From Verrucomicrobiota bacterium JB022 (lineage in GTDB: Bacteria; Verrucomicrobiota; Verrucomicrobiia; Opitutales; Oceanipulchritudinaceae), in NCBI GenBank assembly GCA_030673845.1, contig JAUTCQ010000008.1:1-64000 (forward strand): DNA of 64,000 nt. The letters are read 5' to 3'. Made by a program: the position numbers and the translations under genes. Under the pieces are notes generated by a model. The model saw only the letters and a program-made list of their open reading frames with translations. It was not told the DNA's origin and did no database searches. Every line of letters begins with the position of its first letter. The stretch's first letter is position 1. This document shows, piece after piece, positions 54,285 to 56,374 of the stretch.

Positions 54285-55895
54285 CTACACTGCGGCGGGT
54301 GCGGCCTGTTGCTGCAGCTTCATCAGCTTGAAGCGGTAGGAGTCGCGGAGGGCCTGCCAAGAGGCTTCGATGATGTTGGGCGAAGCGCCGCAGGTCCACC
54401 AATCCTGCTCGCCGTCGCTGGAATTGATCAGCACCTGCACGATGGAGTCGGTGCCGCTGTTGGCCTGGAGGATGCGCACCTTGTAATCCGCGAGGTGGAC
54501 GTTTTGCAGCTCGGGGAAGTGCGTGCCGAAGGCCTTGCGCGCGGCGTGGTCGAGCGCGCCGACCGGGCCGCCGCTTTCGGCGATGGCGAGGTGCACTTCG
54601 TCGTCGTTGTTGACGCGGAGTTTGATCACCGCCTCGGCGATCACCTCTTCGCGCTCGCGCACCACTTCGGAGATCGTGCGGTAGCTGACGAGCTTGAAGT
54701 TGTCTTCGAGGCCATGGAAGTGCTCGTTGAGCAGCACTTCAAAGGACGCATCGGCGTTCTCGAACTCGTAGCCCACGTTTTCGAGCTCCTTGAGGCGCTG
54801 GAGGAACGAGCGCATCTCAGGGCTCTTGTGGTCGACGTCGATGCCCAGCTCGGCCGCCTTCATCGCCACGCTGCTGCCGCCCGCCATGTCGCTGAGCAAG
54901 ATGCGCTGGCGGTTGCCGACCGTCTCCGGCTGGATGTGCTCGTAGCTGTGCGCCACCTTTTGCGCCGCGTTGGCGTGCACGCCGCCCTTGTGGGCAAACG
55001 CGCTCTGGCCGACCCACGGGGCCTTTTTGTTGGCCACCTGGTTGGCGTAGCGGGCCACTTCGAGCGAAAACGGGCGCCACTGGGGCAGGCTGGCCCGGCA
55101 GTTGACCGGGTAGCCGAGCTTGAGCGCGAGGTTGGGCACGATCGTCGTGAGGTCGGCATTGCCGACGCGCTCGCCGTAGCCGTTCATGGTGCCCTGGACG
55201 AGTGTGGCGCCGGCTTCGACGCCTGCCATGCTGACGGCGACGCCGAGGCCGCAGTCGTTGTGGCAGTGCATGCCGATGCGCGTGTTGGGGAAGTGGGCCA
55301 CGACCTTGCGCACCGTCTCCTGCAGCCAGCTGACCATCGAGCCGCCGTTGGTATCGCAGAGCGTGAGGCACTGGGCACCGCCGCGTTCGGCTGCTTCGAG
55401 GGTGGCCAGCGCGTAGGCCGGGTCGTCCTTGTAACCGTCGAAAAAGTGCTCGGCATCGTAGATCACCTCGCGGCCCTTGCTGGTGAGGAAGCGCACGGAG
55501 TCTTCGATCATACGCAGGTTTTCCTCCGGCGTGGTGCGCAGGACCTCCGTCACGTGCAGCAGCCAGGTCTTGCCAAAGATGGTGACGACGGGGGTGTCGG
55601 CGGCCACGAGGGTCGCGAGCTGCGCGTCGTCCTCCGCTTTGATGCCGGCGCGGCGGGTGGAGCCGAAGGCCGCCAGCTTGGCGTGCTGGAACTGGGCGCC
55701 GCGGGCCAGGTCGAAGAAGGCCATATCGCGCGGGTTGCTGCCCGGCCAGCCGCCTTCGATGTAGTCAAAGCCCATGGCGTCCATGCGCTGGGCGATGATC
55801 AGCTTGTCTTTGGCGGAAAAGGAGATGCCCTCGCCCTGCGTGCCGTCACGCAAAGTGGTATCGTAGATCAGAACGGGCGGTTTCTCGGAACTCAT
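54285..55895 (-). CDS. cimA: (R)-citramalate synthase
   Basis: A 536-residue enzyme of the isopropylmalate-synthase family. It condenses pyruvate and acetyl-CoA to citramalate, the entry of the threonine-independent route to isoleucine. The ATG at 55895 gives MSSEKPPVLIYDTTLRDGTQGEG with the metal ligand Asp12. GMHCHNDCGLGVAVSM holds the His ligands and HKGGVHANA the CoA-side motif. The C-terminal regulatory (LeuA dimer) domain is present. The length and TLRDGTQ motif separate it from LeuA (TLRDGEQ). An Ile/Leu-rich leader peptide lies 172 bp upstream and suggests attenuation. Confidence 0.94.
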   Translation of the reverse strand: MSSEKPPVLIYDTTLRDGTQGEGISFSAKDKLIIAQRMDAMGFDYIEGGWPGSNPRDMAFFDLARGAQFQHAKLAAFGSTRRAGIKAEDDAQLATLVAADTPVVTIFGKTWLLHVTEVLRTTPEENLRMIEDSVRFLTSKGREVIYDAEHFFDGYKDDPAYALATLEAAERGGAQCLTLCDTNGGSMVSWLQETVRKVVAHFPNTRIGMHCHNDCGLGVAVSMAGVEAGATLVQGTMNGYGERVGNADLTTIVPNLALKLGYPVNCRASLPQWRPFSLEVARYANQVANKKAPWVGQSAFAHKGGVHANAAQKVAHSYEHIQPETVGNRQRILLSDMAGGSSVAMKAAELGIDVDHKSPEMRSFLQRLKELENVGYEFENADASFEVLLNEHFHGLEDNFKLVSYRTISEVVREREEVIAEAVIKLRVNNDDEVHLAIAESGGPVGALDHAARKAFGTHFPELQNVHLADYKVRILQANSGTDSIVQVLINSSDGEQDWWTCGASPNIIEASWQALRDSYRFKLMKLQQQAAPAAV

Positions 55896-56005: not shown

Positions 56006-56067
56006 AAAACAAAAGGCCAGGTCAAAGGGGCCGGTCGGCCGAAATCAGACGCACAACAGCCGGCCCC
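56006..56067 (-). promoter_or_regulatory. putative transcription attenuator between the leader peptide and cimA
   Basis: Directly after the leader stop codon the minus-strand RNA can form an 8-bp perfect stem, GGGGCCGG (56067-56060) with CCGGCCCC (56034-56027). GGCC blocks at 56015, 56029, 56037 and 56062 allow mutually exclusive pairings. A T-rich run (TTTTGTTTT, 56014-56006) follows. This fits alternative antiterminator/terminator folding, but the hairpin next to the T-run is short (4 bp), so the exact terminator is not certain. Confidence 0.5.
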
Positions 56068-56124
56068 TCAGCTAATAATGAGGGTGCCAATAATCAGTCC
56101 GAGAATGAGCTGATGGCTGGGCAT
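56068..56124 (-). CDS. putative Ile/Leu-rich leader peptide of cimA
   Basis: A short reading frame on the minus strand encodes MPSHQLILGLIIGTLIIS (18 residues), with five Ile and four Leu. All five Ile codons are ATT, although neighbouring genes mostly use ATC. A purine-rich GGTGGGG site lies about 3 nt before its ATG. Position (upstream of cimA, same strand), composition and the GC-rich hairpin after its stop are those of classical leader peptides of branched-chain amino-acid operons. Ribosome stalling at Ile or Leu codons would sense shortage of the pathway end products. Confidence 0.65.
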   Translation of the reverse strand: MPSHQLILGLIIGTLIIS

Positions 56125-56284
56125 TACCCCACCAACAAGCCCCATCTCTGCCCGCCGGTCAAGCCTTTCGTTGCGCAAGTTCCGGCCATGCTCGCCCGCG
56201 CCGCCACCGCACCCGCCCCAGGATCACGATTTTTCCGATTGCCAGCCACCCCGCCGCCCCGTTTATTCTCGTTCTTTCGTCACC

Positions 56285-56374
56285 GGAGGCTTGGCAGAGT
56301 GGACGATTGCGGCGGTCTTGAAAACCGCAGGGCCCGCAAGGGTTCCGGGGGTTCGAATCCCTCAGCCTCCGCCA
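56285..56374 (+). tRNA. tRNA-Ser (anticodon UGA)
   Basis: The acceptor arm GGAGGCT (56285-56291) pairs with AGCCTCC (56364-56370). The discriminator G and an encoded CCA (56372-56374) follow. The anticodon stem GCGGT/ACCGC encloses the loop CTTGAAA with anticodon TGA (56319-56321). A long variable arm and the T-loop GTTCGAATC are present, as expected for serine tRNA. The stretch between cimA and this gene (55896-56284) holds the leader peptide and hairpins. The AT-rich PIN-like gene begins 80 bp downstream. Confidence 0.97.

Follow-up and report, generated by a model that had tools for sequence, protein, structure and literature searches.

Results

The cimA locus and its upstream reading frame

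The 64,000-nucleotide stretch of DNA analysed here, hereafter called the window, carries on its minus strand a cimA gene (54285..55895, ATG at 55895). Its product is a genuine citramalate synthase, since it scores 655 bits with profile TIGR00977, whose cut-off is 450. The initial annotation had described a short open reading frame (ORF) upstream of this gene, with 18 codons including five for isoleucine and four for leucine, and such a frame is found at 56068..56124 on the minus strand. It reads MPSHQLILGLIIGTLIIS, runs from ATG to TGA, encodes all five isoleucines by ATT, and ends 172 nt before the cimA ATG. A short ORF rich in codons for the end product of a biosynthetic pathway, placed ahead of a gene of that pathway, is one of the features expected of a ribosome-mediated attenuator, and the cimA leader has it. 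Short ORFs with five isoleucine codons arose in just 4 of 5000 dinucleotide shuffles of the region upstream of cimA in the window. GGCC blocks and a T-rich run, TTTTGTTTT, lie between the leader stop and cimA, as had also been described.

Searches of the window and of the relatives' loci with Rfam covariance models gave tRNA genes as the only matches at the gathering score, with no T-box or other cis-regulatory family, and a known Rfam element was thereby ruled out as the identity of the cimA leader. One tRNA gene lies divergently from cimA in the window (56285-56371, plus strand), and one is also present at the same-genus locus L007.

The promoter of the leader was sought as well. A simple promoter scan of the leader found none. 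A -35-like box, TTGACC, is nevertheless present at 56157..56162 on the minus strand, 38 nt 5' of the leader ATG, with no recognisable -10 element. In 10 of the 11 family genomes that bear the leader, the pentamer TTGAC stands 37 to 43 nt 5' of the ATG, and in the eleventh 55 nt; shuffled 22-nt windows contain it in 1.1% of cases. Given the position of this box, transcription may begin only a few bases from the leader ATG. The purine-rich stretch GGTGGGGTA, originally read as a ribosome-binding site, would then fall at the expected start of transcription if TTGAC is the -35 box, and its role as a ribosome site is therefore doubtful.

Conservation of the leader within the family

Conservation was assessed in the family of the window's genome (f1), of which 17 genomes were searched and 16 carry cimA; G000 denotes the window's genome and G001 its congener. 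Retention of the short ORF and of its isoleucine codons by relatives had been put forward as a check on the leader, and it was borne out, a related leader ORF preceding cimA in 11 of the 16 cimA-bearing genomes and being absent from the other five (L012-L016). The family peptides include MSSHQLNLGLIIGALIIS (from the same genus as the window's genome), MGTAHSVISAIIVGGSLIIS, MKERQHGILIIISAQRIS and MKSVAGIFFLSGTTLRIS. In G002 the conserved stop is lost and the frame reads on. A conserved core, ATTAGCTGAGGGG, closes the ORF and opens a conserved stem; in the 11 genomes it starts 96-186 nt 5' of cimA.

The 14-base form of this core, comprising the ORF end, the stop and the stem arm, was recovered with at most three mismatches at all 11 leader-bearing family loci and at 2 of 94 other loci tested (L047 and L107), with 36 matches in 2220 shuffles. 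A degenerate core pattern with at most one mismatch adjoins cimA in 10 of the 17 family genomes. A covariance model built from the 11 sites finds these 11 and no others, all at cimA, and it gave no match in 212 other genomes of the order under strict filters, by which weak sites may be lost. One extra copy of the core with at most one mismatch is present in the window's genome (L126, G000 C3:185774-185790); it was not reported by the covariance model.

The leader is specific for isoleucine and favours ATT

To identify the sensed amino acid, the best short ATG-started ORF upstream of each cimA gene in the 16 family genomes was compared with shuffled sequences for 15 amino acids. Isoleucine occurred on average 3.56 times per leader ORF against 0.95 in shuffles (z 14.9). 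None of the other 14 amino acids approached this value, the highest being glycine (z 3.0), with leucine at z 1.2 and valine at z 0.5. Because isoleucine stands alone, the cimA leader is, as judged from its composition across the family, an isoleucine leader and not the isoleucine/leucine leader that had been proposed; leucine, which is not enriched across the family, was rejected as the sensed residue.

The codons used for isoleucine are unusual. ATT accounts for 42 of the 47 isoleucine codons of the family leaders; in the cimA genes that follow them the figure is 27 of 215 (P 1e-24). In the window's genome all five isoleucines of the leader are ATT whereas all 23 in cimA are ATC, which confirms the earlier observation that the leader goes against the local preference for ATC. 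The remaining codons of the family leaders (n=154) are near normal, with a GC3 of 0.72 against 0.81 expected from cimA, the arginine codon CGA being over-used (7/14 against 6/343 in cimA). Since ATT and ATC are read by one tRNA, I only infer that ATT is read more slowly, by wobble, in the leader. AT-rich ATT codons may in part serve the structure of the RNA. High sensitivity of attenuators is said, in the accessible part of PMC1183508, to need a particular choice of synonymous codons.

Mutually exclusive pairings around the leader stop

Four RNA segments, all on the minus strand, can be laid out along the leader of the window. Segment 1 (A, GGCACCCTCA, 56079..56088) lies within the ORF, directly after the tandem isoleucine codons 11-12, and pairs with segment 2. 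Segment 2 (B, GAGGGGCCGGC, 56059..56069) starts at the stop codon and pairs with either segment 1 or segment 3. Segment 3 (C, CCGGCCCC, 56027..56034) pairs with segment 2, forming the B:C helix, or through GGCC with segment 4 (D, GGCC then TTTTGTTTT, 56006..56018), giving a candidate weak terminator. The arm after the stop, written GGGGCCGG or GAGGGGCCGG, is thus contested by the end of the ORF and by a downstream arm.

The A:B duplex of the window has a predicted energy of -16.9 kcal/mol, which a fraction of 0.003 of 300 shuffled A segments equalled. Among the 11 family leaders, the fraction of shuffles that matched A:B was 0.09 or less in eight, and in G007, G008 and G002 A:B did not outdo the shuffled sequences. 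The B:C helix was examined in an alignment of the 11 genomes: 95.5% of 88 cells were paired, against at most 67.4% when the arms were slid. The number of paired cells, the number of two-sided cells and the covariation score were each reached by 8 of 500 shuffles. Two pairs were changed on both sides; 61 of 500 shuffles had as many two-sided pairs and 237 of 500 as many pair types. In G010 and G007, a free duplex search picked B:C partners other than the aligned arm.

Folding with and without a stalled ribosome, which the initial annotation had suggested, was carried out by masking each isoleucine codon in turn in G000 and G001. Masking from isoleucine codon 11, 12 or 16 allowed B:C to form and C:D did not form, whereas masking from codon 17 gave C:D in both genomes. 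With the ribosome masked at the stop, GGCC paired in G000 with the GGCC that precedes TTTTGTTTT, and in G001 a bigger hairpin formed that ends before TTCTTTCG. A stall on codon 7 in G000 yielded A:B together with C:D, that is termination, which speaks against the model. The fold of the whole leader of the window was no better than that of shuffled sequences (z -0.10). The mutually exclusive pairings around GGCC that had been claimed thus hold, as judged by folding with masking, by the B:C alignment and by the A:B duplexes: 1:2 and 2:3 exclude each other and are placed so that a stalled ribosome could choose between them, A:B being unconvincing in 3 of the 11 leaders.

The putative terminator

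A GC-rich hairpin followed by a T-rich run had been claimed between the leader stop and cimA. The pairing of GGCC blocks before TTTTGTTTT is present in the window, but the 3:4 hairpin is weak, with four pairs and -4.3 kcal/mol, and it is inconsistent in relatives. A simple scan found no terminator in the leader of the window. A scan for U-tract terminators found none in 4 of the 11 family leaders and was inconsistent in the rest; of the 11 f20 leaders scanned (f20 being another family of the order, see below), eight had none. The same scan gave some match in 37 of 44 control cimA upstream regions, with values up to -21.6, and a family-wide U-tract terminator was rejected on this ground. A 3:4 terminator with its U tract is thus weak in the window, inconsistent in the family, and strong in the f14-type leaders described in the next section.

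Isoleucine leaders before cimA in other families

Isoleucine leaders that differ from those of f1 precede cimA in 8 of 12 f20 genomes as judged by the filter, with three more recognised by eye (e.g. MESLAQSSTSLRAAVGRAIIPAIITIIGL). Similar leaders were found in 4 of 10 f21 genomes (e.g. MQFIVTTLAIARIR), to which one read by eye (L136) can be added; the listed L147 is unlike the four. Further cases were 4/18 in f14 together with the named locus L043, 1/1 in f23 and 1/3 in f4. The ATT bias is weaker in these families, 16 leaders containing 48 ATT and 24 ATC codons. A leader end of the form Arg-Ile-X-stop (Arg-Ile-Ser or Arg-Ile-Arg; CGA ATT nnn stop) is common to f21 (L025, L028, L149, L154), f23 (L180) and part of f1 (L017, L018, L021), and the disfavoured CGA codon sits in this shared end.

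In a comparison with shuffles, isoleucine leaders were counted in 10/16 upstream regions of f1 (0.19 expected), 4/18 of f14 (0.17) and 7/12 of f20 (0.07). The same test gave 0/10 for f21 under the filter and no excess for the other families of the order (4/54 against 2.85 expected). Isoleucine was not enriched over 85 upstream regions from outside the family (z 0.3), and 80 named upstream regions held 7 isoleucine leaders against 2.7 expected and a shuffle maximum of 8, which is no clear excess. Since there is no order-wide excess over shuffles, the evidence beyond f1, f14 and f20 amounts to individual cases. Isoleucine-containing ORFs in f2, f3, f5, f8, f9, f11, f12 and f15 were taken as chance occurrences, the pooled other families showing no excess over shuffles. 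The differing leaders of several families hint at a repeated origin.

Hairpins of -14.5 to -19.4 kcal/mol precede T tracts in the four f14 leaders and in L043, where 2:3 pairings of -13.7 to -18.6 are also possible and candidate antiterminator arms lie inside the ORF after isoleucine codons; the 1:2 pairing assigned to L190 and L043 is open to doubt. L173, L188 and L043 retain the terminator in their minimum-energy fold despite a stalled ribosome, and the 2:3 pairing would therefore need to win kinetically. The stalled-ribosome folds of L182 and L190 ended before their terminators and are uninformative.

A valine leader before ilvB

Of the two ilvB genes of the window's genome, one (L227, G000 C17:451765-453414) is preceded by a valine leader, MISFAHRAVVALVTVVLVLVVGISPVERAR, in which 7 of 9 valine codons are GTA, against 0 of 36 in ilvB itself, and which is followed by a hairpin (-18.1 kcal/mol) and then TTTTTG. 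The other ilvB gene, L219, gave no leader match. Valine-rich leaders also precede ilvB at L225, L215 and L210. Pooled over the four ilvB leaders counted, GTA stood at 19/38 versus 12/154, L210 using it for 0 of 7 valines. Upstream regions of ilvB were examined at 18 of 26 places and gave eight matches, seven of them rich in valine or leucine; those of ilvD, examined at 12 of 18 places, gave two weak matches. Nothing matched the leuA profile TIGR00973 at the set threshold. Two of the 17 family genomes, not including that of the window, have a match above the cut-off of TIGR01127, the sole ilvA model used. Because a valine leader with a terminator precedes ilvB in the window's genome and isoleucine leaders precede cimA in other families, the lineage appears to use leader attenuation with the residue matched to the pathway.

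Discussion

The control of cimA by a leader peptide and attenuator, proposed at the outset, is supported by conservation in the family, by the ATT bias and by the exclusive pairings. The leader ORF encodes a real, conserved isoleucine leader peptide that is very probably part of a cimA attenuator, and ribosome-mediated attenuation of cimA by isoleucine supply is, on this comparative evidence, a reading to which I attach high confidence. When isoleucine is short, the ribosome would wait on the ATT codons and cover arm 1, so that arm 2 could pair with arm 3. With arm 3 so held, no termination structure would form and transcription would proceed into cimA. When isoleucine is plentiful, the ribosome would reach the stop and cover arm 2, or depart and let 1:2 form; arm 3 would then be free and transcription would end before cimA. 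This last step, from a free arm 3 to termination, I infer from the GGCC/GGCC pairing and TTTTGTTTT in the window's genome alone.

A variant of this reading, whose odds overlap with it, is that the leader is translated and senses isoleucine but works without an intrinsic terminator, B:C being the effector of, for example, Rho-dependent termination or transcript stability. Four of the 11 family leaders and eight of the 11 f20 leaders have no U-tract terminator and yet B:C is kept, and mycobacterial cys leaders are described without obvious terminators in the accessible text of PMC1262725. Against this stand the GGCC/GGCC pairing followed by TTTTGTTTT in the window, the bigger hairpin before TTCTTTCG in the congener, and the intrinsic terminators of the f14-type cimA leaders and of ilvB in the window's genome. 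The variant is possible, at odds clearly below even. The family might also lack an intrinsic terminator and use an arrest close to the stop: the leader end (Ile-Ser-stop, often Arg-Ile-X-stop, beside the GGGG arm) would halt the ribosome two codons before the stop, or the nascent chain would respond to isoleucine, and either would set B:C. The CGA ATT nnn stop end recurs in f21 and f23; I regard such an arrest as unlikely.

The alternative that the conserved core belongs to a structured RNA element, binding a protein or a metabolite, with the ORF incidental, draws on the conservation of ATTAGCTGAGGGG as nucleotides. It is improbable in view of the isoleucine and ATT enrichment across the whole ORF, the differing isoleucine leaders before cimA in other families and the lack of an Rfam match. 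That a chance ORF lies beside chance hairpins, as the fold z of -0.10 and the absence of the leader from 5 of 16 family genomes might suggest, is contradicted by the conservation, helix and enrichment results and is barely credible.

Ribosome-mediated attenuation as favoured here resembles the trp attenuator of enteric bacteria (trpL): regulatory codons sit in a leader ORF, segment 1 lies where that ORF ends, the stop separates segments 1 and 2, and 2:3 is the alternative pairing. Unlike trpL, the cimA leader carries isoleucine instead of tryptophan codons, has cimA as its target and a weak 3:4 terminator, and its 5' leader may be very short and lack a clear ribosome site. The ilvGMEDA and ilvBN leader peptides are rich in branched-chain residues, carry codons for several of them and act by intrinsic termination, whereas the cimA leader is specific for isoleucine, matching a gene used for isoleucine. 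Both of these attenuators are named as known in the accessible part of PMC1183508. The leader peptides of ilvB, leuA and cys genes in actinobacteria (PMC1262725, as far as its accessible text goes) were likewise identified by comparison, and some lack obvious terminators; they differ in phylum, genes and RNA, and the word 'citramalate' does not occur in the accessible main text of that paper. Six candidate attenuators of Shewanella precede branched-chain and other amino-acid operons according to the accessible text of PMC3223726, in the main text of which, to the same extent, 'cimA' does not appear. No earlier report of a cimA leader peptide was found in the literature on cimA or citramalate attenuation or on leader peptides of Verrucomicrobia/Opitut, which is weak evidence of absence as most subscription journals lie outside the coverage. 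A familiar mechanism would thus act on an apparently undescribed target.

If so, this little-studied group would place the first committed step of its citramalate pathway under the control of an isoleucine leader peptide. The amino-acid specificity matches the gene, isoleucine before cimA and valine before ilvB. Disfavoured synonymous codons, ATT at cimA and GTA at ilvB, are used almost to the exclusion of others, which provides a natural test of the way in which codon choice sets the sensitivity of an attenuator.

Although the 80 named upstream regions showed no clear excess when taken together, isoleucine-rich leaders with an alternative pairing arm in the ORF were also seen before cimA at L051 (Syntrophaceae bacterium UBA6112; terminator-like hairpin of -18.8 kcal/mol) and at L080 (Desulfobacteria bacterium; terminator-like hairpin of -11.0 kcal/mol), which suggests that cimA attenuators may exist outside this order.
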